A stretch of DNA of 45,396 nucleotides, taken from Myxococcales bacterium (GTDB lineage Bacteria; Myxococcota_A; UBA9042). A program made the position numbers and the translations under genes. Where the stretch lies: contig SHZF01000037.1 in assembly GCA_009692425.1 (NCBI GenBank), positions 1 to 45,396 of the forward strand, read 5' to 3'. Position 1 is the stretch's first letter; every line of letters starts with the position of its first letter. The notes below the pieces were generated by a model, which saw nothing but the letters and a program-made list of their open reading frames with translations, was not told the origin of the DNA and ran no database searches. Positions 4,774 through 23,971 of this stretch are shown here, one piece after another.

Positions 4774-4790
4774 CGGAACCAGGCGCTACG
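4769..4790. terminator. Inverted repeat spanning two convergent stop codons
   Basis: CGTAGCG (4769-4775) and CGCTACG (4784-4790) form a perfect 7-bp stem with an 8-nt loop. The left arm contains the TAG stop of the VOC gene, and the right arm contains the TAG stop (CTA on this strand) of the convergent BIG2 lipoprotein. The symmetry suits a bidirectional terminator, but there is no U-tract on either side, so activity is uncertain. Confidence 0.4.
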
Positions 4791-7700
4791 GCGCGGGCAC
4801 GCTCAGAACGGCCTTGGCGCTGATCGGGCCCTTGACGGCCTTGATTTCGCAGTTGCCCGGCCCGAGCGCCTGCGCCTTGCCCTTGCCGTCGAGCGCATTC
4901 GAGACCTGGCATACGGTGGGCGCGGCCGACAGCCAGGTGACGTCCTGGGTCACGTCGAGCAGCAGGCCGTCGGCAAAGCTGCCGGCCGCGGTGAACGCCA
5001 CAATCTTGCCCACGGTCGCGCTCGACTGCGCGGGCTGGACTGCTAGCGACGCCAGCTTCGCGTCGGTCACCGTCACGGTCGCCGCACCCGTCTTGCCGCC
5101 CCACGTCGCCTGCACCAGCACCTTGCCGGCGCTGACTGGCGTGAACGCGCCCTTGGTCGGCCACGCGGACGACACGGTGCCCAACGCTGGTGCCGAGGTC
5201 GTCCACGTCGCGAGTTGCGTCAGGTCTTCGGTCGTGTCGTCCGAATAAAGCGCCGTCGCCTGGAACGGCCGCGAATAGCCCAGCGGCAGCGTCAGCAGGA
5301 ACGGCGTCACCTGCACTTCGCTCAGTGCGGCCGCGGTCACCGTCACAGTCGTCGTGCCCGACTTGCCGCCCCACGCCGCCGACACCGTCGTCGTGCCCGC
5401 TGCCACGGCCTGCACGAGGCCCTTGCCGAAGCCGACGCCATCGACGGCGGCCACGGCCGGATTCGACGACTGCCAGGTCGCGCCCCAGGTCACCTGCTGC
5501 GAGGTGCCGTCCGTCATCAGCGCGACGGCCTGCAGGCCGAACCACGTGCCCTTGGCCACCTTCGGCTGTGTCGGCGTCACCTGGATCGACGACACCACGG
5601 CGTCCGTCACCGTCAGCTTGGCCTTGGCGATCAGCCCCGCGTACACGCCCTGGATGGTCACCGTGCCCGGCTTCAGCGTCTGCGACCAGCCGGCGGAACC
5701 AAACGCATCGGAGACCGCCGCCACGCTCGGATCGGTCGATGTGAACGTCGTCGCCCAACTCACGTCCTGGGCCTGGCCGTCAGACCACACCGCGAGCACG
5801 TCGAATTTTACCGGAACGCCTTTCGACACCGTGGCCGTGCCCGGCGAAATCTGGATGGATTCCAGGGTCGCGGGCGTCACGCTGAACGTCGCCGCGCCCA
5901 ACAGGCCCTGGTAGTTTGCGGTGATCTTTGCGGTGCCGGGACCGACCGCCTTGGCCAGTCCCTTGTAGCCCGCCACGCCGCCGAACGCGTTGCTGACGAG
6001 CACCACCTTGGGGTCGCTCGACAGCCAGGTGGCCTGAAACGTCACGTCGAGCGAGGTGTTGTCGGTGTAGAGCGCCTGGGCCGAAAACGCGCGGTACATG
6101 CCTTGCGCGGCCGTCGCCACCGCCGGGAACAGATGGATGCCCGCCAGCAGCGCCGGCGTCACGGTGACGAGCGCCTTGCCGGTCATGCCCTGGTAGGTCG
6201 CCTTCAACTCGGCCTGGCCGGGCTGGATCGCCGTCACCCGACCGCGCGCGAAGATGGGCGTGTTCTGCACGGCGGCGACGGCCTGATTGCCGCTGACCCA
6301 ATCGGCCTGCCACGTCACGTTCTGGCTCGTGTTGTCGCTCCACAGCGCGACGGCCTGGAAGAACTGCACGATGCCCGCCGGCATCGCGAACACCACCGGC
6401 GTCAACTGCACGTCGACCAGCACGGCGCCCGACACCGTAAAGCTCGTCTTGCCGATCTTGCCACCCCACGCCGCTGCGATGTCCGCCTTGCCGACTCCGG
6501 TCGCCTTGAACAGGCCGGTCTGGTTGCCGGTCCCGGTCGCGTCGGCAATGGTAGGATCCGTGCTGCTCCAGATCGCCTGCTGTGTCACGTTCAGCGTCGT
6601 GTTGTTCGTGTAGATGGCCGTCGCCGCGAACTGGACCTGTTGGCCCGCGTGGCGCTCCGGGTGAGGCGGCGTCACGACCACGTCCACGAGTGCCGGCGCC
6701 GTCACCTTGACCGTCGCGCTCGCCGTCTTGCCTTGGACCGTCGCGGTCAGCGTCGCCGATCCGGGCCCGAGTGTCGACACGATGCCGGCCGCGCCGCCGA
6801 CGTTGGACACCGAGATGACCTTGTCGTTCGACGCTGTCCACACCGCGAGCGCGGTCAGGTCGGCGGTGGCCGCGTCCGTGTAGGTGCCGACGAGCTTGCA
6901 CTTGTGCTTCTGGCCGACGGCGAGTTCGAGCGGGTTCGGCTCGATCTGCACCTGGGTCAGCGTTGCCGGCGTCACCGTCACCGTCGTCGTCGCTGCCACG
7001 CTGCCGATCGCCGCCGAGACGGCCGATTGCCCAGGTTCGAGCGCGGTGATCACGCCCTTGCTGGCGCCAGCGTTCGAGACGGCGACGACCTTGGCGTCGG
7101 CGACCTGCCACACGACGTCGGCCGTCACGTCTTTCGAGGCGCCGTCGGAGAAAAAGCCGAGCGCCTGCAACGGCAGCGTCGTCGCCTTGGGCAGCGCTGG
7201 GTTCTGGGGCGCGATTGCGAGCTTCGTCAGCGTCGCCGCCGTAACCGTAATGGCCACGCCGGCGGCCTTGCCCGCAAACGTCGCCGTGACCGTCGCCGTG
7301 CCCGCATGGACCGCATCGACCTTGCCTTTCTTGCCGGGAGCGTTCGCGACTGTGGCCACCGCCGGCGACGACGACGTCCACGCGACGGATTGCGTCAGAT
7401 CCGACACCGACTTGTCGCTCCACGTGCCCTTGGCGACGAGCGCGGCCGACGTGCCGGCGGGCAATTGCAGCGAGGCTGGCTCGACGGCGAGGCTCGTCAA
7501 GTGAATGGGCAGCACCGTCACTGCCGTCGTGCCGGTCTGGCCGCCGAAGCTCGCCGTCGCCAGGCTCGACCCCGCCGCCAGCGCCGTCGCCAGGCCCGCC
7601 TGGACTCCCCCTTGCACGATCGCGAGCACGCCGGGGTCCGACGCGTTCCACAGCGCCGCCCCCGTGACGTCGGCGACCTTGCCGTCTTCGTAGGTGGCGA

Positions 7701-8613
7701 TGGCCTGCAGGGCGAGCTTCATGCCAACAGCGAGCGTTGGCGAAACCGGGCCCACCGCGATCGAGACCACCGGCGCAGGCAGCACGGTGACGCTGGCCGA
7801 CGCCTTGACGGCACCGAGGCTCGCCGTGACGCTCGTCGAACCGGCCGCCACGCCGACGACCGCACCTTGGGCGATCGTCGCGACTTCGGGCGACGCGGTC
7901 GTCCACACGGCGAGCGCCGTCGCATCCTGCACAGAGCCGTCTTCGAGCGAGGCCAAGGCGGCGAATTGGGCCTTGCCGCCCACGTTCAGGTTCAGCGCGG
8001 CTGGCGCGATCGCCAGCGCCTTGACCGCGCTCTGGCCCACCGTGATCGCGAGCTTGGCCTGCAGCCCCAGGTGAACGGCCGTCAGCGTCGCCTGGCCTGG
8101 CGCGAGCGCGGTGACGAAGCCGTGGGTGGCGGTCGCGACGTTGGCCAGGTCGATGCTCCAGTTGGCAAGCGTGGTGACGTCTTCGGTCGTGCCGTCGGTC
8201 CACGCGAGCATCGCTTGCACCTGCGCGGCGGCGCCCAACGGCATGGCGAGCGCGGCCGGCTCCAGGGTCAATGCGGTGGGCACGGGCACAGAGACGTCGG
8301 GCGGCGGGCGCACCGTGGTGTCCAGCCCGGCTGCGACGTCGGCATCGGTCGCCGTGCCAGGAGTGCCCGGGTTGGTCGGCTTGGCGTCGATGCCGACCGC
8401 AACCGAGTCGAGCGAGCCATCGGGCCCATGGGAGTCCGCTGCGGCTGCGTCCGCCGTCGCCCCGCTGACGGGGGCGTCGGTACCGCACGCCGTCGCCGCG
8501 ACCGTGACGAGCGCGCACAGAATCGACGCCAGAGAAGGACCACCGCGGCGCGTGGCGCGTCTCACCGGATCGGGTGCCCACCTGAGCGCCGGGAGGTCGT
8601 CGTGTCGATTCAT
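4786..8613 (-). CDS. Giant lipoprotein with 13 tandem BIG2 (bacterial Ig-like) repeats
   Basis: The 1275-aa protein has a signal-like segment (SLASILCALVTVAATAC, lipid-accepting Cys about 43) and a low-complexity D/A/G/S/P linker to about residue 130. Thirteen repeats of about 88 aa follow and fill the rest. Each opens with a strand like I-x-V-x-P, has an A-x-x-x-D-G-x-x-x-D-V-T centre, a W-x-S-x-x-P-x-V-A segment, and closes G-x-A-T-V-T-A-x-W-G-G-K-x-G-x-x-x-V-T-V-T, the pattern of BIG2 (PF02368). Such proteins form rigid surface stalks or adhesins. No catalytic or binding head is present beyond the repeats. ATG 8613 is chosen because GAGGAAG lies about 6 nt upstream. A GTG at 8565 is possible but lacks a ribosome site. 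The start overlaps the divergent broken gene by 12 bp. Confidence 0.85.
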   Translation of the reverse strand: MNRHDDLPALRWAPDPVRRATRRGGPSLASILCALVTVAATACGTDAPVSGATADAAAADSHGPDGSLDSVAVGIDAKPTNPGTPGTATDADVAAGLDTTVRPPPDVSVPVPTALTLEPAALAMPLGAAAQVQAMLAWTDGTTEDVTTLANWSIDLANVATATHGFVTALAPGQATLTAVHLGLQAKLAITVGQSAVKALAIAPAALNLNVGGKAQFAALASLEDGSVQDATALAVWTTASPEVATIAQGAVVGVAAGSTSVTASLGAVKASASVTVLPAPVVSIAVGPVSPTLAVGMKLALQAIATYEDGKVADVTGAALWNASDPGVLAIVQGGVQAGLATALAAGSSLATASFGGQTGTTAVTVLPIHLTSLAVEPASLQLPAGTSAALVAKGTWSDKSVSDLTQSVAWTSSSPAVATVANAPGKKGKVDAVHAGTATVTATFAGKAAGVAITVTAATLTKLAIAPQNPALPKATTLPLQALGFFSDGASKDVTADVVWQVADAKVVAVSNAGASKGVITALEPGQSAVSAAIGSVAATTTVTVTPATLTQVQIEPNPLELAVGQKHKCKLVGTYTDAATADLTALAVWTASNDKVISVSNVGGAAGIVSTLGPGSATLTATVQGKTASATVKVTAPALVDVVVTPPHPERHAGQQVQFAATAIYTNNTTLNVTQQAIWSSTDPTIADATGTGNQTGLFKATGVGKADIAAAWGGKIGKTSFTVSGAVLVDVQLTPVVFAMPAGIVQFFQAVALWSDNTSQNVTWQADWVSGNQAVAAVQNTPIFARGRVTAIQPGQAELKATYQGMTGKALVTVTPALLAGIHLFPAVATAAQGMYRAFSAQALYTDNTSLDVTFQATWLSSDPKVVLVSNAFGGVAGYKGLAKAVGPGTAKITANYQGLLGAATFSVTPATLESIQISPGTATVSKGVPVKFDVLAVWSDGQAQDVSWATTFTSTDPSVAAVSDAFGSAGWSQTLKPGTVTIQGVYAGLIAKAKLTVTDAVVSSIQVTPTQPKVAKGTWFGLQAVALMTDGTSQQVTWGATWQSSNPAVAAVDGVGFGKGLVQAVAAGTTTVSAAWGGKSGTTTVTVTAAALSEVQVTPFLLTLPLGYSRPFQATALYSDDTTEDLTQLATWTTSAPALGTVSSAWPTKGAFTPVSAGKVLVQATWGGKTGAATVTVTDAKLASLAVQPAQSSATVGKIVAFTAAGSFADGLLLDVTQDVTWLSAAPTVCQVSNALDGKGKAQALGPGNCEIKAVKGPISAKAVLSVPAP

Positions 8614-11149: not shown

Positions 11150-11179
11150 TTGACTTGGCGGCGTGCTCTGCAATTCTAC
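11150..11179 (+). promoter_or_regulatory. Possible promoter of the lipoprotein operon
   Basis: A good -35-like TTGACT (11150-11155) is followed after 18 bp by a weak -10-like TTCTAC (11174-11179), just after a T-rich stretch (11140-11146). It lies about 85 bp before ATG 11265 of the first gene in the three-lipoprotein block. The -10 match is poor, so the exact site is uncertain. Confidence 0.35.
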
Positions 11180-11264: not shown

Positions 11265-14200
11265 ATGACAGGAACACAGAAACTCCGCAAAGCCACCCAG
11301 ACGTCGCCCTCGATCTGGACGACCGCCGCGCGGCAGTTGGCAACGCTGCGATGGGCAACGCTGCGATGGGCAACGCTGCGATGGGCAACGCTGCGATGGG
11401 CAACGCTGCCGTTGGCGGCGCTGCTGTTGGCGGTGCTACAGCTGGCAACACTGTCGGGCTGCGCGCAGATGACCGACGACGGGTTGGACAAGGCAGCTGG
11501 CGGTGGCAACGGCGCCGCCGGCAAGGGCGACGGCAGCGCAGGCGGTGGCAATGCCGCGGGCATGGCGGCCAACGGTGCAGGCGGCAAGGGCGCTGCCATG
11601 GCGACCGAAGGCGCGGGCCAGGGCGGCGGCATGTCGTCTGGCGGCGGCAGCGGCACGACCTGCAAGACCGACAAGGACTGCAAGAACGGCCAAGTGTGCA
11701 CGAAGTCCGGCTTCGCGAAGGCATGCGGCCCCAAGGGTGGCAGTTGCGTCGGTGCGGCCGAAGTCTGCAATGGCAAAGACGACGATTGCGACGGCCAGGT
11801 CGATGAGGGCTCGCCGTGTTCCGATGGCAATGCCTGCAACGGAGCCGAGAGTTGCCAGGCCGGCGCGTGCGTGGCAGGCGCGCCGCCCGCCTGCGCCGAC
11901 GCAGACGCTTGCACCTTGGACTCGTGCGATCCGGCCAAGGGCTGCCAGTACAAGCTGTTGGCGGGCGCGACGTGCGACGACGGCAACGCGTGCACGGGCT
12001 GCTCGCTGCCCGCGGGCGTGCAGTCGATGTACGCGGCTACGGTCGCCGCGAACTGCCCGGAGGAGAAATGGGTCGGCTGCAACGCGCTGTGGCTGCCCGG
12101 ATTCTACGACGGCATCGACAAGCACATCGCACGCTTCGACATTGCGCCCGGCGCCCGGCTCGACTGGAACGCCGACGGTACCGCACACCTGCACGGCCGC
12201 GTGACGTCGTACCACGTGACGGGCGGCCCGCAGACGCTCGGTGAGGCATGGGATCTGTCGATCGGGCTCCAGTACCGTGGCCAGGGCGCGGCCGGCGTGG
12301 GGTCGGGCGGGCCGAAGCTCGACGACGGGTGGGTCGTGCCGAAGTCGATCACCGACACATGGCACTATTTCGATATGATTCCAGGCAAGGCGACGCTGCA
12401 GAAGGTGGGCGGCGGCGGCGCGGTGGCGATGACGCAGAAGCCGGCCGGCTCCGTGTTCCCCTTCCAGATCGGCAAGGGTGCCAACGGCAAGACGATGGCG
12501 TTCGGGTCTTCGGCGTGGTTCGACTACGTCAAGACGACGCCCGACGGCGTGATCCAGGGCCACGGCGACGTCAACGTCGACCTTGAGAAGCTCAACATTC
12601 CCGATGACTGCGACACCTGCAAGGAGGGCACGTGCGCGCCCGGCAGCAAGAAGTCGTGCGACGACAAGAACGGCTGCACGGTCGATGCCTGCGATGCGAA
12701 GACGGGCACTTGCTCGAACGCCCCGCAAGACGCGGCGAGTTGCGACGACGGCCTGGTGTGCACGACTGGCGACGCGTGCAAGGGCGCGTATTGCCAGGGC
12801 GGCCCCGCCGACGACAAGGCGTGCGATGACGGTGAGCCATGCACCAAGGACAAGTGCACCCATGGCATCGGCTGCCAGAACCAGGGCGCCTTGCCGCACG
12901 TACCCTGCGACGACGGCAACGCGTGCACGGCCGGCGACGAGTGCTTCGGCAAGAAGTGCAAGGGCAAGGAGCCGACCGGGTGCGACGACCAGAATCCCTG
13001 CACCGTCGACAGTTGTGACGACAGCGCGGGGTGCCAGCACGCTCCCGTCGACGCGCCGGAGTCGGGCGCGGGCGTCCCGTGCGAAGATGGCGACGTCTGC
13101 ACCAGCGGTGAGGCGTGCGTAGGCGCGGCCTGCAAAGGCGGCACGCCCACGAGTTGCGACGACCAGAACGCGTGCACGGTCGATGCGTGCAACAAGCTGA
13201 CGGGCTGCACCCACACGGCCAAGGCCGGCGCCTGCGACGACGGCAATGCGTGCACCCAGGGCGACGCGTGCGGCAAAGGCCAGTGCGTGCCCGGTGCTTC
13301 GGCGGTCTGCGACGACGGCAGCCCGTGCACGAAGGATTCCTGCGACTTCAAGCAGGGCTGCCTGCACGCCCCCCTCGACGGCAAGTGCGACGATTCGTCA
13401 CAGTGCACGAGCGGCGAAACGTGTCAAGGCGGCGCGTGCGGCGGCGGCGCGCTGGTCAATTGCGACGACGGCAACCCGTGCAGCCAGGATTCGTGCCTGG
13501 CGGCGCTCGGTTGCATGCACGAGGGGCTGAGCGGGTCGGCGTGCGAAGACGGCGACGCATGCACCCAACAGGACGCGTGCGCCGCGGGCAAGTGCAAGGC
13601 GGGCAGCGCCACTGCGTGCGACGACGGCAGCGCGTGCACGGCCGACACGTGCAACCCCGCCAAGGGATGCGTGTTTGTTCCACTCGACGGCAAGCCGTGC
13701 AACGACGGCAACGCGTGCACGCCGGCCGATGTGTGCAACGGCGGCGCTTGCGTAGGTGGTGGGGCGACCGACTGCCACGACGGCAATCCGTGCACGACGG
13801 ATGCCTGCGACGCCAAGAAGGGCTGCTTCGCGGTGTCGGCCGATGGCAAGCCGTGCAACGACAAGAACGCGTGTACGAGTGGTGATCTCTGCAAGGCAGG
13901 GTCGTGCGTCGCCGCCGGCAAGATCGACTGCGACGACGGCAACGCGTGCACCGGCGAGGCATGCGAGCCGAAGAAGGGCTGCGTGATCACGCACCTCGAC
14001 GGCAAGGCGTGCAACGACAACAACGCCTGCACTACGGAAGACGCGTGCAAGGCTGGCCAGTGCACGGGCAAGACGCCGATGGCGTGCAGCGACGGCAACC
14101 CTTGCACGACAGACAGTTGCGAGGTCAAGGGCGGCTGCAAGTTCGTGCCTGCCGATGGCGCGCCGTGCAGCGACGGCACCGCTTGCACGGTCGGCGACTC

Positions 14201-16301
14201 CTGCCACGCCAGCGCGTGCAAGCCAGGTGGCGCGGCCGAGTGCGACGACGGCAACCCGTGCACGGCCGACGCCTGCGATGCCAAGGCCGGCTGCACGAAC
14301 AAGAACAGCGACGGCAAGCCGTGCTCCGACGACGACGCATGCACGGCGGACGACACCTGCCAGGGCGGGGCGTGCGGTGGCAAGTTCCCCGCGTCGTGCG
14401 ACGACAAGAACGCGTGCACGACCGACGGCTGCGACAAGCAGGGCGGCTGCTGGCACAAGCCGAAAGACGGCGCGGCCTGCTCGGACGGCAACGCGTGTAC
14501 GGGAGCCGATGTCTGCCTGTGGTCGAAGTGCGTGGCCGGCGCGGCGGTCGTGTGCAACGACGGCAATCCGTGTACGGCGGATGCGTGCACGGCCGACACG
14601 GGCTGTGGCGCGGTACCGATCGGCGGCGCGTGCGACGACGGCAACGCGTGCACTCAGGGCGATTCTTGCGGCGGCGGCGCGTGCAAGGGCGGGTCGGCAC
14701 CGGCGTGCGACGACGGCAACGCGTGCACCGCCGACACCTGCGATGCCAACGCCGGCTGCCAGCACGCCGACAAGAACGGCGCGGCGTGCGTAGACGGCAA
14801 CCCGTGTACCGCCAACGACACCTGCCAGGGCGGACAGTGCAACGGCGGCAAGGTGAACTGCGACGACGGCAATCCGTGCACGGTCGATGGCTGCGACAAG
14901 GCCAGCGGCTGCACGCACGAGGGCCTGACGGCAGGGGCGGGCAGCATCGACATCGTCAGCGACGCGGCCACGAGCGCAGGTGGCAAGCCGAGCGTGGCGA
15001 CGTGGAGCTTCCACAAGAGCTGGACGGCGCAAGTGCCGGGTGCCACCTGGATCTGGAGCGAAGTGCTGGTGTCGAACCCGGCGGTCGATGCAGTGGTGAC
15101 GTTCGAGCGCTCGTTCAACGTGTCGCCGGCCGCCGAGGGCCTTCAGGGCACGCTTGTCGTCGCCGCCGACAACAGCTACGTGTGCACGCTCAACGGCGTC
15201 AAGGTCGGAGAGGATGCCACCGAGTTCAACTACTTCGAGTCGTCGAAGGACACCTGGGCGCTGGGCACGGCACTGCAGCCGGGTGCGAACAAGTTGGTGT
15301 GTACGGTCAAGAACTGGGCGCAGTGGTGGGGTACGGCGTACACGAATCCGGCCGGCCTGCTGTACCGCTTGCAGGCGCAATGGACGGCCAAGGTGCCGTG
15401 CAGCGACGGCAACGGCTGCACGGTCGGCGACGTGTGCCAGGCCGGTGCGTGCAAGCCCGGGGCGCTCAAGACGTGCAACGACGACAACGTGTGCAGCGCT
15501 GACTCGTGCGACCCGGGCTCGGGCCAGTGCCTCGCCAAGCCGCTGTCGGGCCAGCCTTGCAACGACGGCAATCCGTGCACAGGCGTCTGCTTGAAGCCCG
15601 GCGTGAGCGCGTCGTACGAACTGTCGGGCGCGACGGGCTCGGGTGGGCACGGCTTCTGGCTCCCAGGCTTCTCTGGCGCCGGCACGGAGCGCATGGTGTT
15701 CAACCAAGATGCGCGCTTCGATGTGCTGGCCGGCAAGGGCCACATGTACGGCACGGCGACCGTGTTCGATGCCGGCGGCGGCTGCTGCGTCGGCGACGAG
15801 TGGAAGTTCGACTTCTGGTTTGCGTACCGCGGCCAGGGTCCTGCGGGCCAGGGCTCGGGCGGGCCGAAGTATGGTGTCATCAAGACGGTGCCCAAGGCGG
15901 TGACCGATACCTGGAAGTACTTCGACATGATCCCGGGGCAAGCCACCATGGTTCGCGTCGGCAATCCAAAGGAGTGGGCCGCGATCGGGCAGGCACCGGC
16001 GGACAGCATGTTCCCGTTCCAGTTGGGGCTCGGCGCGAACTACTTCTCGATGGTGCTGGGCGCCTCGTCGTGGCTGGTGTACGAGCGCCATGCCGAGAGT
16101 GGCAAGGTGTGGGGCGGCAAGGGTGACGTGAACATCGACATGACGCCGGCCAATCCGCCCGCGACCTGCGATGCGTGTCAGAACGGCCAGTGCACCGGCG
16201 GCAAGGTCAGTTGCGACGACGGCAACCCGTGCACCCTCGACGCCTGCAACCCGGCCAACGGACAGTGCTCCCATACAAAGATTCCAGGCTGCGATTGCTG
16301 A
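11265..16301 (+). CDS. Giant Cys-rich repeat lipoprotein with duplicated unassigned domain
   Basis: A 1678-aa predicted surface lipoprotein. The signal peptide contains a tandem A-T-L-R-W repeat and ends LATLSGC (lipid Cys about 66). A G/A-rich linker follows, then 36 copies of a C-x-D-x-x-x-C motif (mostly CDDGNACT or CDDGNPCT), in alternating types of about 20-25 aa each. Three non-repeat modules interrupt them: A (about residues 244-443), C (about 1224-1378, beta-sandwich-like) and B (about 1441-1632). A and B are clearly homologous: both have WLPGF, YRGQG-AG-GSGGPK, TDTW-YFDMIPG, FPFQ-G-GAN and GDVN-D. The repeats are presumably disulfide-bonded and may bind Ca2+ through their acidic loops (inference). 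ATG 11265 has GGGGGA 4 nt upstream. A longer frame from GTG 11163 is less likely. It ends 5 bp before the Kelch-like lipoprotein start. Confidence 0.8.
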   Translation: MTGTQKLRKATQTSPSIWTTAARQLATLRWATLRWATLRWATLRWATLPLAALLLAVLQLATLSGCAQMTDDGLDKAAGGGNGAAGKGDGSAGGGNAAGMAANGAGGKGAAMATEGAGQGGGMSSGGGSGTTCKTDKDCKNGQVCTKSGFAKACGPKGGSCVGAAEVCNGKDDDCDGQVDEGSPCSDGNACNGAESCQAGACVAGAPPACADADACTLDSCDPAKGCQYKLLAGATCDDGNACTGCSLPAGVQSMYAATVAANCPEEKWVGCNALWLPGFYDGIDKHIARFDIAPGARLDWNADGTAHLHGRVTSYHVTGGPQTLGEAWDLSIGLQYRGQGAAGVGSGGPKLDDGWVVPKSITDTWHYFDMIPGKATLQKVGGGGAVAMTQKPAGSVFPFQIGKGANGKTMAFGSSAWFDYVKTTPDGVIQGHGDVNVDLEKLNIPDDCDTCKEGTCAPGSKKSCDDKNGCTVDACDAKTGTCSNAPQDAASCDDGLVCTTGDACKGAYCQGGPADDKACDDGEPCTKDKCTHGIGCQNQGALPHVPCDDGNACTAGDECFGKKCKGKEPTGCDDQNPCTVDSCDDSAGCQHAPVDAPESGAGVPCEDGDVCTSGEACVGAACKGGTPTSCDDQNACTVDACNKLTGCTHTAKAGACDDGNACTQGDACGKGQCVPGASAVCDDGSPCTKDSCDFKQGCLHAPLDGKCDDSSQCTSGETCQGGACGGGALVNCDDGNPCSQDSCLAALGCMHEGLSGSACEDGDACTQQDACAAGKCKAGSATACDDGSACTADTCNPAKGCVFVPLDGKPCNDGNACTPADVCNGGACVGGGATDCHDGNPCTTDACDAKKGCFAVSADGKPCNDKNACTSGDLCKAGSCVAAGKIDCDDGNACTGEACEPKKGCVITHLDGKACNDNNACTTEDACKAGQCTGKTPMACSDGNPCTTDSCEVKGGCKFVPADGAPCSDGTACTVGDSCHASACKPGGAAECDDGNPCTADACDAKAGCTNKNSDGKPCSDDDACTADDTCQGGACGGKFPASCDDKNACTTDGCDKQGGCWHKPKDGAACSDGNACTGADVCLWSKCVAGAAVVCNDGNPCTADACTADTGCGAVPIGGACDDGNACTQGDSCGGGACKGGSAPACDDGNACTADTCDANAGCQHADKNGAACVDGNPCTANDTCQGGQCNGGKVNCDDGNPCTVDGCDKASGCTHEGLTAGAGSIDIVSDAATSAGGKPSVATWSFHKSWTAQVPGATWIWSEVLVSNPAVDAVVTFERSFNVSPAAEGLQGTLVVAADNSYVCTLNGVKVGEDATEFNYFESSKDTWALGTALQPGANKLVCTVKNWAQWWGTAYTNPAGLLYRLQAQWTAKVPCSDGNGCTVGDVCQAGACKPGALKTCNDDNVCSADSCDPGSGQCLAKPLSGQPCNDGNPCTGVCLKPGVSASYELSGATGSGGHGFWLPGFSGAGTERMVFNQDARFDVLAGKGHMYGTATVFDAGGGCCVGDEWKFDFWFAYRGQGPAGQGSGGPKYGVIKTVPKAVTDTWKYFDMIPGQATMVRVGNPKEWAAIGQAPADSMFPFQLGLGANYFSMVLGASSWLVYERHAESGKVWGGKGDVNIDMTPANPPATCDACQNGQCTGGKVSCDDGNPCTLDACNPANGQCSHTKIPGCDC
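11340..11408 (+). repeat. 15-bp tandem repeat (4.6 copies) inside a lipoprotein signal peptide
   Basis: GCAACGCTGCGATGG is repeated perfectly four times (11340-11399), followed by a 9-bp partial copy. In frame it encodes A-T-L-R-W per unit. Change in copy number would lengthen or shorten the signal peptide by five residues without shifting frame. Confidence 0.9.
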
Positions 16302-16306
16302 CCGGC

Positions 16307-17860
16307 GTGGGCGAGTCAAGCGGTCGATGGGCGAACGCGGCGGCGCTGCGAGCGGTTTCTCGGTTGCGCGCGCTGCCGCTGGGTCGCTGGTCAGGTGTGG
16401 TTCTGGCCGTTGGGGTCGTCGCGTGCGCGGGGCCAGAAGCACCCGACGCGGCTGCGCCCGCTGCGGTGGTGCCAGACTGCGGCTGTGCGGCTGCGGACAC
16501 AGCGGTTGCCACGGATCTCGCCGGTGCGGTACTCGACGCCGGGCGCGCACCCGATGCCGCCCCGGCCGCCCTCGAAGCGACGCCCACGTGCAGCCCAGCC
16601 TGGCTGGAGTTGGCCGCGAGCCCGACAGCGCTCGTGCCGCCGCCCGGCGAGGTGACGCTGACGGCCACCGTGGGCGGCGTCGATGTCAGCGCGGCGTGCC
16701 GGTGGGAAGTCGGGCCGGCATCGGTCTGCCAGCCTGGCCCGGTTGCCGGCAGCGTGCGGCGCGCCGGGCTGGGCACGTGTACGGCCGTGTGCCGGCTGAG
16801 CGGCGGCAAGTGCGGGCTGGCGACGTTGCGCGCGGTGCCGCAGACGGTGCTGTACGTGGTCGGCGGAGAGTCGCCGCAGTTTCCGCCGCCGTCGAGCGCT
16901 GCGGCCGAGGCCGTGCGCGTGCAGCGGTTCCGCACCCTTGACCGCCAGTGGGACAAGGCGGTCGCGTGGCTGCCGGAGTTTCGCATCCAGCCGGTGGTCG
17001 CCGCGCGCGGGCCGTGGCTCTATGTACTCGGCGGCGAAACCGGAGGCGACGCCTCGACGGCGGAGTTCTGGGACGTGTTCTTCCCGACGTGTGCCGAGTC
17101 GATCATCACGCCGACCCAGCTCAAGACCGAAGTCGGCTGTCGCGGCGTGCGGCGGCTCGACCTGCGCAGTGGCACGTGGGACACCCCGTTTCAGTGGCTG
17201 CACCCGCGCGTCGATGCCGGGTTCGCGCAAGACGGCGACACGCTGTGGGTCGTCGGCGGCCAGCGCGCCAAGACGATCGTAGTGCCTGCCCTGCCCGAGG
17301 TGCTGCACCGCATCGATCTGGCCACTGGCTCGGTCGCGCCCGGCGCCGCGCCGCCGCCGCCCGGGTTCGAAGTCAACAATCCCAAGCTGCGCTGGCCGCG
17401 CTGGGACCCGATCGTGCGCGACGGGGCGCCGACCGTGTTTGCGGCCCACGCGACGTGGACGTTGGCGCCGGACGGCAGCGCATGGCTCAAGGACGAACTC
17501 GGCTGGCCATGCCCGGAGAACCAGCCGCGCGCCGTGTTCGCTTTCCCAGGGCACGACGACGTGTTCGTGTTGCCAAGCCCGCAGGCCGAGGGACCCCTGT
17601 GCCCGCAATGCCCACAGCCCGTGGCGCGCCCCGACGGCACCCTGGCAGAGGTGTGCGCGCCGTGGCGGCTGCGCGACGGCAAGTGGACGGCGGCCGAACC
17701 GATGCCGTACGTGCAGCCGATCGCGGCCCATGATGGGCTGTACGCGCTGGCGTCCGATGGCGTGTACCGGCTCGCCACGCCGACGGGCAGTTGGCAGCGC
17801 GTGGGGCCGCCATTGCCGGCGGAGCGCTTTGGCGCAGCGGCTGTCGCGGTGGAGCAATGA
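16307..17860 (+). CDS. Kelch-like beta-propeller lipoprotein
   Basis: A 517-aa predicted lipoprotein. The hydrophobic segment GVVLAVGVVAC puts the lipid Cys near residue 40. A D/A-rich linker and a Cys-containing beta domain follow (about 65-170). From about 180 there are propeller-type blades with Kelch hallmarks: VLYVVGGE, LYVLGGETGG and LWVVGGQRAK, each followed by a variable loop and a W-containing strand (TWDTPFQWL, KWTAAEPMPYV). Kelch propellers bind carbohydrate or protein. The ligand here is unknown. The start is GTG 16307, 5 bp after the preceding stop. TTG 16364 is an alternative that gives a shorter n-region. The stop overlaps the next gene by 4 nt, so all three lipoproteins are probably co-translated. 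Confidence 0.72.
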   Translation: MGESSGRWANAAALRAVSRLRALPLGRWSGVVLAVGVVACAGPEAPDAAAPAAVVPDCGCAAADTAVATDLAGAVLDAGRAPDAAPAALEATPTCSPAWLELAASPTALVPPPGEVTLTATVGGVDVSAACRWEVGPASVCQPGPVAGSVRRAGLGTCTAVCRLSGGKCGLATLRAVPQTVLYVVGGESPQFPPPSSAAAEAVRVQRFRTLDRQWDKAVAWLPEFRIQPVVAARGPWLYVLGGETGGDASTAEFWDVFFPTCAESIITPTQLKTEVGCRGVRRLDLRSGTWDTPFQWLHPRVDAGFAQDGDTLWVVGGQRAKTIVVPALPEVLHRIDLATGSVAPGAAPPPPGFEVNNPKLRWPRWDPIVRDGAPTVFAAHATWTLAPDGSAWLKDELGWPCPENQPRAVFAFPGHDDVFVLPSPQAEGPLCPQCPQPVARPDGTLAEVCAPWRLRDGKWTAAEPMPYVQPIAAHDGLYALASDGVYRLATPTGSWQRVGPPLPAERFGAAAVAVEQ

Positions 17861-18789
17861 TGCGCGGGCGACCTCCTGCGCCGGGCCACGGCGCGTGGGC
17901 CCCGTGCGTCGCGACCACAGGGACTCCGTGGGTGGCGTGGGTGGCGTGGACGGCCGCGCTGGCATCCTGTGGGGAACTCGAGGCCGTCGACCGGGCCGAT
18001 GCCGCACCTGCTGCCAAGGGGGCCGACAGCGCGCGCTCCGGGGCCGATGCGAGCGCACCGGCAGATGCCGGCGAACTGGCTGACAACACGGGCCTTGCCG
18101 ACAACAACGGGCTTGCTGACAACGCCGCAGGTGCCGACGCCACCGGACCCGCGCCACGCACCGCCGTCTACGCCCACACCGCGTGGGGCCCGCCGTGCCC
18201 GGACGTAGCGGGCGCCGCGCCGAAGGCCTGCTTCACCGCGTGCGAGCCCACCGCGCAGTCGAAGGTGACGGGCGCCGGGCCCGTCCCCGACCCCAAGCAA
18301 TGCACCTTCGACCCCGGCCTGCTGTGGCCCAAGGGCCCGACGCCGCCGCCCACGTTGACGGTCGAACTCGGTGCGGTCCATCCGAAGACCGGCGCGTTCG
18401 TGCCGTACCAGGATGGGCAGTGGGCACCGATCGTGCACGGTGTTCAGGGCGGCATCCACGTGTGGACGGCGCTGCGCACGACGCTGCCGGGCTTTCAGGG
18501 CGCCAAGGCGACGCTCGAAGTGGGCGCCAACAGCTACCTCGACTGCAAGAACGTCGCCACCGAACTCGCGCGCAAGCCGATCGCGTTTGCCGACCCGAGC
18601 CAGCCGGGCACCTGGACCACGGCGTCGCTGCTGCTGCCGCCGACGCCGGTGGCCTTCGACGAAAACGTGCCGGGGCCGTATTGCGGCAAGTGGATCGTGC
18701 TGCGCGCCGAAGTGCGCCTGCCCGGCACCCAGCAGTGGGGCCACGCCGTGAAAGTGCTGCGGCTGTACGACCTCGCCAATCCGCTCTGA
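17857..18789 (+). CDS. Putative lipoprotein with beta-rich domain (third gene of block)
   Basis: A 310-aa protein of no recognised family. The N-terminus has a hydrophobic segment TPWVAWVAWTAALASC whose L-A-S-C fits a lipobox (Cys 38). A low-complexity linker follows, carrying a three-fold six-residue repeat (LADNTG, LADNNG, LADNAA; residues about 74-91). The remaining roughly 200 aa look like a beta-sandwich: Cys residues near CPDVAGAAPKACFTAC, a TLTVELGAVHPKTGAFVPY strand pair, and GGIHVWTALRTTLPG. The start ATG 17857 overlaps the Kelch-gene stop (ATGA), with GGTGGAG just upstream. Given this coupling it likely acts with the two preceding lipoproteins at the outer surface. Function unknown. 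Confidence 0.65.
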   Translation: MMRGRPPAPGHGAWAPCVATTGTPWVAWVAWTAALASCGELEAVDRADAAPAAKGADSARSGADASAPADAGELADNTGLADNNGLADNAAGADATGPAPRTAVYAHTAWGPPCPDVAGAAPKACFTACEPTAQSKVTGAGPVPDPKQCTFDPGLLWPKGPTPPPTLTVELGAVHPKTGAFVPYQDGQWAPIVHGVQGGIHVWTALRTTLPGFQGAKATLEVGANSYLDCKNVATELARKPIAFADPSQPGTWTTASLLLPPTPVAFDENVPGPYCGKWIVLRAEVRLPGTQQWGHAVKVLRLYDLANPL

Positions 18790-22534: not shown

Positions 22535-23971
22535 ATGGCCCTCGACGGCCCCGCGTTGTCCCCTTCTGATGCCGAAGCCGGTGCTGCTGCCGCCGGGACT
22601 GGCGACCCCGCACTGGCCGACCCCGCACTGGCCGACCCCGCACTGGCCGACTCTGGGGCGAGCGATCCCGCATCGATCGACCCTGTTTCGACCGATCCTG
22701 CTTCGACCGATCCCGCTTCGACCGATCCCGCGCCAGATCGCCCCCGCGGCCTGCACCTCGACACCCTCCTGCCCCTGCGCGATGCCGTCGCCGCCGCCTT
22801 CCGCCGCGAAATCGAAGGCGCCTTGAACGCCGTTTCGCGCGCACCTTTGGAGCCGGCCGACGCCGTCCACGACTTTCGCCGGGCCGTGCGCCGCTCGCGG
22901 GCCATCGTGCGCTTGGTGCGCGGTGCGTTGGGGCAGGCGACCTACGAGGGACTCGACCGTACTCTCGCTGAGCTGGGCCGTGCGAGTTCCGGCCTGCGCG
23001 ACGCCGAAGTGTTGCCGGCCGCCCTGCGCGCCATCGAGCCGCGCCCGAAACGGCGCCTGACGATCCTGCTCGAAGCACTCGAACAGAAGCGGGAACAGGC
23101 GTATGCCACGGGGACGGCCGCGCGCGTCCTCGGGGCGGCAGAGATGCGTCTGGCGCCGCTCGCCGAGGCGCTGCACGGAGGGCTGCCGCCCGAACTCAGT
23201 TGGGACGACCTGGTCGAAGGCCTGCGCCTTGCCTACCGCCGGGCTCGCAAGGCGCGCGACCTTGCGAAGAAGCGGCCGCACCATGTGCTGATCCACGACT
23301 GGCGCAAGCGGGTCAAGGAAGTGCGCCACCAACTCGAACTCCTGACGCCCGGCCAGGCCAACCACGCGGCCCAGGCCCGCGTCGATGCCTTGCGCGACCT
23401 GGGGCGCAGCCTCGGCGACACGACCGACGTGCTCGCATTGCGGCAGTGGCTCCAGCGCCAGAGCGGGCACGGCGAACTGCGCGCGACGTTGATGAAGGCC
23501 GCCAAGGCGCGCATCGTGGCCGGGTTCGATGCCGCACTGACGGCCAGTCGCGACGTGTTTCGCAGCAAGGCGCGGCGGTTTTCAGCCGAAGTGGCTGCAG
23601 ACGCCGAGGAGGCCTCCGACGACGCCCAACTGGCGCGCGACCTTGCGAGCATCATCGCGCGGGGGTCCGAGCCTGTTGCGGCGGCCGAACTCGTGGCCGA
23701 TGCCGAGCGCCCGCCCGCCGAAGCGGCAGGGCCGGAACGCGCCGAAACTGGACAGGCGGCGCCTGTAGCATTTCCGACAGCACGCCCCAAGACGCGGCGG
23801 ACGCGGCCGGCTCGCCCCAGCGCAGCGCCAAACGGAGCCGGTGCTGCACAGGAAGCGAGCCCAGCGGAAGCGAGCCCAGCGGAAGCGAGCCCAGAGGCGG
23901 CGAGGGCGTCACGCGACGACAGTGCCGGCCGCGAAGCCGACGAGGACGCGGGCCTCAGCGAGTCACCCTGA
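22535..23971 (+). CDS. CHAD-domain protein with low-complexity repeat termini
   Basis: A 478-aa protein. The central part (about residues 70-350) is a CHAD domain, an alpha-helical module rich in conserved basic residues that binds inorganic polyphosphate and associates with polyphosphate granules. Supporting blocks are VHDFRRAVRRSRAIVRLVRG (about 109-128) and its internal-symmetry partner VLIHDWRKRVKEVRHQLELL. These are the two copies of the H-x-x-R-K/R-x-x-R-x-x-R pattern. The N-terminal 65 residues are D-P-A-L-A and D-P-A-S-T pentapeptide repeats. The C-terminal 110 residues are A/E/P/R-rich with S-P-A-E-A repeats. Both tails are probably disordered. There is no fused CYTH/ppx domain. The window also has phaR, so storage-granule biology is a reasonable context (inference). 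Confidence 0.85.
   Translation: MALDGPALSPSDAEAGAAAAGTGDPALADPALADPALADSGASDPASIDPVSTDPASTDPASTDPAPDRPRGLHLDTLLPLRDAVAAAFRREIEGALNAVSRAPLEPADAVHDFRRAVRRSRAIVRLVRGALGQATYEGLDRTLAELGRASSGLRDAEVLPAALRAIEPRPKRRLTILLEALEQKREQAYATGTAARVLGAAEMRLAPLAEALHGGLPPELSWDDLVEGLRLAYRRARKARDLAKKRPHHVLIHDWRKRVKEVRHQLELLTPGQANHAAQARVDALRDLGRSLGDTTDVLALRQWLQRQSGHGELRATLMKAAKARIVAGFDAALTASRDVFRSKARRFSAEVAADAEEASDDAQLARDLASIIARGSEPVAAAELVADAERPPAEAAGPERAETGQAAPVAFPTARPKTRRTRPARPSAAPNGAGAAQEASPAEASPAEASPEAARASRDDSAGREADEDAGLSESP
22604..22648 (+). repeat. 15-bp tandem repeat, three perfect copies
   Basis: GACCCCGCACTGGCC three times, encoding D-P-A-L-A units in the CHAD protein N-terminus. Confidence 0.9.
22664..22738 (+). 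repeat. Degenerate 15-bp tandem repeat, five copies
   Basis: Five 15-bp units related to GATCCCGCTTCGACC encode DPASI, DPVST, DPAST, DPAST and DPAPD in the CHAD protein. Copies differ by a few bases each. Confidence 0.8.
23852..23894 (+). repeat. 15-bp tandem repeat near the CHAD gene 3' end
   Basis: GAAGCGAGCCCAGCG twice, plus a 13-bp third copy, encoding E-A-S-P-A units in the disordered C-terminal tail. Confidence 0.85.

Follow-up and report, generated by a model that had tools for sequence, protein, structure and literature searches.

Two described systems lie closest to the locus considered here. In Myxococcus xanthus, TraA and TraB are encoded by overlapping genes, and according to the published proposal a Cys-rich tandem-repeat stalk carries a recognition domain at the myxobacterial cell surface (PMC3325183). 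In Dictyostelium, the Dicty_CTDC repeat (PF00526) is found in matrix proteins, among them EcmA/EcmB, PsiA and PsiF, according to two further reports (PMC4931340, PMC4406040). The present locus lies in a 45,396-nt stretch of DNA (the window; contig SHZF01000037.1) from the genome of a Myxococcales bacterium, which comprises 4.94 Mb in 137 contigs with about 70% GC. Three co-directional open reading frames of the + strand, A, B and C, follow each other there with two tight junctions in the window's ORF calls. This trio is made up of known domain kinds plus one unannotated family (C), and its operon is conserved over a narrow range of genomes.

The original prediction had described three lipoprotein genes, the first two 5 nt apart and the last two overlapping by 4 nt, each with a lipid-attachment Cys and a disordered linker, and both the coordinates and the motifs agree with that description (Table 1). 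The reading frame of A is open already from a GTG at 11163, ahead of the ATG at 11265, and the start codon of B is uncertain, with later in-frame TTG and GTG codons present. Upstream of the trio, on the opposite strand, is a gene of the histidine phosphatase family, and downstream is recQ; the latter was considered as a fourth member of the operon and rejected, being unlinked in 3/3 relatives, where it is found on other contigs. A promoter and terminator scan gave nothing useful, with one promoter-like site, located inside A, and terminators below the shuffled mean. Elsewhere in the window, a large lipoprotein-like ORF of 1275 aa (gene caller) occupies positions 4786-8613 of the - strand, opposite a listed + strand ORF.

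Table 1. Features of the A-B-C trio in the window, with the distribution of their families, and loci pairing family C with other partners.
Feature	Location	Strand	Description and basis
Gene A	11265..16301	+	Giant Cys-rich lipoprotein, 1678 aa from ATG; ORF; Dicty_CTDC PF00526, E 4e-88; same-place orthologues in three other genomes
Repeat in A signal region (ATLRW)	11339..11437	+	15-bp in-frame tandem repeat; TRF: 4.7 copies, 100% match, plus degenerate copies
Lipid-attachment Cys of A, predicted	11460..11462	+	LSGC, Cys 66; motif match
A domain D1	11997..12584	+	About 195 aa, predicted antiparallel beta-barrel; alignment; AF2 pLDDT 76, pTM 0.77; in 19/282 phylum genomes, 7/22 in f1
A main Cys-rich stalk	12657..14936	+	25/27-residue alternating repeats; Pfam, motif spacing
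A domain GBD	14937..15392	+	About 152 aa, jelly-roll-like (galactose-binding-like) by inspection; 61% identity across genera; in 20/282 phylum genomes, 18/22 in f1
A domain D2	15585..16142	+	Second copy of D1; 45% identity to D1
A/B gap	16302..16306	+	5 nt; A stop ends at 16301, B GTG start at 16307
Gene B	16307..17860	+	Kelch-type lipoprotein, 517 aa; Kelch_4/Kelch_1 above curated cut-offs; family B in 7/282 phylum genomes, all in f1, the window's family (7/22; four of them close)
Lipid-attachment Cys of B, predicted	16424..16426	+	VVAC, Cys 40; motif match
B/C overlap	17857..17860	+	4 nt, ATGA; C ATG at 17857, overlapping B stop
Gene C	17857..18789	+	Small beta-rich lipoprotein, 310 aa; AF2 all-beta, low confidence, pLDDT 61; family C in 28/282 phylum genomes, 20/22 in f1
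Lipid-attachment Cys of C, predicted	17968..17970	+	LASC, Cys 38; motif match
C-family gene, Dicty_CTDC-type lipoprotein and metH-like gene	L039, L044, L048, L050-L053, L055, L056, L061, L067, L072

The linkers that follow the three lipid-attachment Cys residues are of low complexity, with 78-93% of the next 40 residues being A/G/D/S/P/T/E/Q/N/K. A lipobox-like motif is present in 12/12 trio proteins of the four genomes that carry the trio, as called by motif matching, and with the starts used several signal peptides would be no longer than 9-16 aa. In E. coli, lipoproteins with an Asp directly after the lipid Cys stay in the inner membrane. Such an Asp is found in A of the relatives G021 and G014, which by E. 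coli rules would imply inner-membrane retention of these two proteins, the rule being that of E. coli and possibly not that of Myxococcota. The ATLRW repeat of the A signal region occurs at a single place in its own genome and is missing from the A proteins of G021 and G014; its copy number may therefore differ between strains and alter the A signal peptide. Short in-frame repeats seem common across the window's contig, and a CHAD-domain gene contains further 15-bp tandem repeats (window 22598-22731 and 23851-23894).

Conservation of the neighbourhood in other genomes was the main check that the original prediction had itself proposed, and its outcome favours the trio. A search of 36 genomes of relatives matched B in seven, own genome included, with close B proteins in three relatives (G010, G014 and G021) at 44-48% identity. 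In 4/4 genomes with a close B, the order A-B-C and the strand are kept, with A upstream and C downstream of B, and the junctions are tight: B and C overlap by 4, 4, 4 and 1 nt, and A and B are separated by the 5-nt gap in the window and overlap by 4 nt, at GTGA, in the relatives G021 and G014. The A/B junction of G010 was left unscored, since its A is split over several frames, perhaps through faulty assembly. Among these genomes, B and C proteins share 44-52% identity, and apart from the broken A of G010 the trio frames are free of stops, which is beyond what chance would give. When 23 window ORFs were compared with the trio loci, matches were obtained for A, B and C only; several of the other 20 are wrong-frame picks, and those of the near neighbours (the recQ, MFS, FAD and phosphatase genes) are in the right frames. 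Taken with the position of recQ on other contigs in 3/3 relatives, this indicates that the trio is kept and its surroundings are not. Within genus g8, G010, G014 and G021 have a close B together with D1, and G007, G017 and G019 have neither. The range is narrow, covering 4/22 genomes of the family and 4/282 of the phylum, in a sample of MAGs only and two genera only. In a tree of C, the four trio proteins form one clade (support 99/93), suggesting that the trio probably formed once; this tree used 40/44 C-bearing genes, matched stretches shorter than about 100 aa having been dropped. The proposal of three predicted exported lipoproteins as one coupled unit is thus borne out in the order and junctions of 4/4 genomes with a close B, and the three proteins probably do form one functional unit.

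The component families extend beyond the trio. Outside it, loci bearing D1 have a B- or C-family neighbour in 0/13 cases and loci bearing GBD in 0/16, and the distant B genes, those of G002, G008 and G011, have no C or D1 nearby (the distant B at L013 was missed at a stricter gene-caller setting and seen at a laxer one). These A-like giants and distant B genes argue against a universal tie between the three families. Each of the 16 GBD loci (G000:C115 = L109:4429-10479, plus L110-L124) encodes a GBD-bearing protein of Dicty_CTDC type, with 1,792-2,284 aa in 15/16 and a call shortened to 752 in L114, and A therefore looks like a specialised relative of this core giant. Most genomes of the family carry a core Dicty_CTDC plus GBD giant, and its neighbours vary. 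The description of the locus as an undescribed system stands in part: a search of the open-licence literature found nothing on the A-B-C operon, but its domain types are known except for C, and the larger families of A and C are mostly found without B.

Since each of the three families occurs alone elsewhere, the genes might be co-transcribed and encode exported lipoproteins that act independently, for example as structural components of the envelope or extracellular matrix, with shared regulation and no single complex. The presence of Dicty_CTDC repeats in Dictyostelium matrix proteins such as EcmA/EcmB, as described in PMC4931340 and PMC4406040, fits this possibility. Against it, tight junctions have been kept at 44-52% protein identity and A and B are jointly present or absent in g8, and independent action is considered possible but doubtful. 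The favoured reading is that of one operon-like unit in which three co-translated exported lipoproteins act together as a surface assembly for ligand binding or adhesion, to which about an even chance is given.

The architecture of A is that of an extended repeat protein. It contains 164 Cys residues, compared with 15 in B and 8 in C, and has the CxDxxxC motif 37 times, for the most part with spacings that alternate between 25 and 27 residues. Dicty_CTDC scores 289 bits (cut-off 27) over 18 stretches, and a Pfam scan of A at E up to 0.1 detects this family alone. An N-terminal linker is followed by a few Cys-rich repeats, D1, the long stalk, GBD and D2. When the D1 model was examined for likeness to lipocalin/YceI/avidin-like barrels, Foldseek gave no match at E up to 0.001, and a PDB sequence match at E 0.056 was dismissed. 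D1 may resemble domains of PEP-CTERM proteins. As for B, the Kelch matches are weak and above the Pfam cut-offs (Kelch_4, 24.8 vs 21.6 bits, 2e-5; Kelch_1, 20.9 vs 20.1 bits, 2.5e-4), and no single stretch passes the cut-off alone; an Ig-like stretch was assigned by inspection, and comparison with PDB sequences gave no match at E up to 0.1. Judged from these profile scores, B is a predicted divergent Kelch-type protein. For C, no Pfam or NCBIfam match was obtained, and one chance-level match to PDB sequences was seen (E 2.1). Its low-confidence AF2 model (pLDDT 61) gave a best Foldseek E of 3.2e-4, to an adhesin repeat domain, and a best VIA Z of 7.9, and its structural matches are mostly Ig-like sandwiches.

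In the proposed surface assembly, A would be held by its N-terminal lipid anchor, and its long disulfide-rich stalk would project outward, carrying the barrel-like D1 and D2 and the jelly-roll-like GBD. B, as an Ig-like stretch followed by a Kelch-type propeller, and C, as an Ig-like sandwich, would be anchored beside it and would bind either A or the same ligand as A, which could be prey or kin as well as a glycan or a matrix polymer. What the sequences themselves display is the gene order, the tight junctions, the lipobox motifs, the repeat architecture and the conservation of the three genes together; export to the outer surface, a physical complex, and adhesion or ligand binding are inferred, and the prey contact or glycan capture of the original prediction would likewise be putative functions. 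Against this reading, the family searches detected neither enzyme nor lectin families. Many glycan-binding proteins contain Kelch propellers or jelly-roll-like domains, and the predicted presence of such domains in the trio also agrees with a scavenging set, in which A or B would bind a polymer and pass it to enzymes or transporters for uptake or degradation. The D1 model resembles small-ligand barrels, with a best VIA Z of 10.3 to BcnB, but OmpA and designed barrels reach Z 8.2-9.7, and since such plain barrels score nearly as high as BcnB, the fold of D1 shows no ligand. Moreover, neither the window nor the relatives have a hydrolase or TonB-type gene next to the trio, and the MFS gene that follows recQ does not accompany the trio in the relatives; we regard scavenging as improbable.

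Family C is also found in other settings. In 12/12 loci of one type (Table 1), a C-family gene and then a lipoprotein of Dicty_CTDC type stand ahead of a gene that is presumably metH-like; the Dicty_CTDC assignment of the partner was shown by Pfam for three of the 12 and made by motif count for the rest. Many of these loci have further conserved genes, serS-like ones among them. The C genes of the metH-like loci form no single clade in the C tree. Further C-family genes lie near FG-GAP/UnbV proteins (Pfam shown for three, the others by BLAST similarity only); in the window's own genome (G000, L037), one is located between two FGE-sulfatase/Ig proteins; in G023 (L074:8834-10345), a C-family domain and an FGE-sulfatase domain share one ORF; and in G002, C-family genes are close to Dicty_CTDC giants, one of them with a CotH domain. 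A general role of C as an adaptor for exported proteins was suggested by a first count of its neighbours (27/84 exported vs 43/252, p 0.003), and this signal was lost on recount. With C genes excluded as neighbours, 26/82 were exported, of which the metH-like loci contributed 13/24; without the 12 metH-like loci, the count was 13/58 vs 34/167 (p 0.44); and without both these and the trio loci, it was 11/50 vs 28/121 (p 0.64), i.e. no enrichment over background. All these counts depend on a lipobox pattern and on a gene caller that clipped some starts, that of B in the window included, and L065, where the gene caller made no C call, stands outside the neighbour and tree counts. The exported-neighbour signal therefore comes from the 12 metH-like loci, and only the metH-locus pair and the trio support the adaptor idea. 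It is a rather unlikely suggestion that C is a reusable small lipoprotein subunit paired with different Cys-rich giants (A in the trio, the metH-locus lipoprotein and the giants of G002), in a modular surface display to which the Kelch protein B would be a lineage-specific addition.

As a defined and testable set of three genes, the trio is a candidate for the way in which an uncultured family of the Myxococcota may build its surface. In it, a giant stalk of Dicty_CTDC repeats, a type also present in matrix proteins of Dictyostelium, is linked to lipoproteins that are its dedicated partners. Two further things come to light with it, namely the lipoprotein family C, which is widespread and unannotated, and a giant stalk protein carried by most genomes of that bacterial family.

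Compared with known systems, the trio differs from each in a particular way. The metH-locus pair resembles it in that a C-family gene is co-directional with a lipoprotein of Dicty_CTDC type, but the partner there has 620-740 aa and 2-4 repeat motifs, no Kelch gene is present, and the genes are separated by gaps of 49-478 nt and do not overlap. The core giant of the family, of about 2,000 aa, has the repeat stalk and GBD in common with A; unlike A, it has no detected D1, and in 16/16 loci it has no B or C neighbour. The Dictyostelium matrix proteins share with A the Pfam repeat in long exported arrays, a likeness of repeat family and not of established descent, whereas A is a predicted bacterial lipoprotein in an operon, with D1, D2 and GBD added. 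A receptor for kin recognition or for contact-dependent outer-membrane exchange like TraAB, with A as a homotypic stalk receptor and B and C as partners, would share with TraAB a translationally overlapping operon and a Cys-rich stalk presenting folded domains (PMC3325183), but it is judged very improbable, since A has no PA14 lectin-like domain in the Pfam scan at E up to 0.1, no TIGR04201 Cys-rich repeat (0 NCBIfam families at E up to 0.5) and no MYXO-CTERM tag, which does occur at 6 other places in the genome, and no OmpA-like partner is present, B having Kelch matches only and C no Pfam match. As these four sequence features fail, the trio was not filed as TraAB. Nonetheless, TraAB is the nearest to it in anatomy, by its overlapping genes, Cys-rich stalk and recognition domain; translational overlap is found for B/C in 4/4 trio genomes and for A/B in G021 and G014. 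What sets the trio apart from TraAB is that A is anchored by an N-terminal lipid Cys and that three genes are involved, with Kelch-type and C-family proteins as partners of the stalk.
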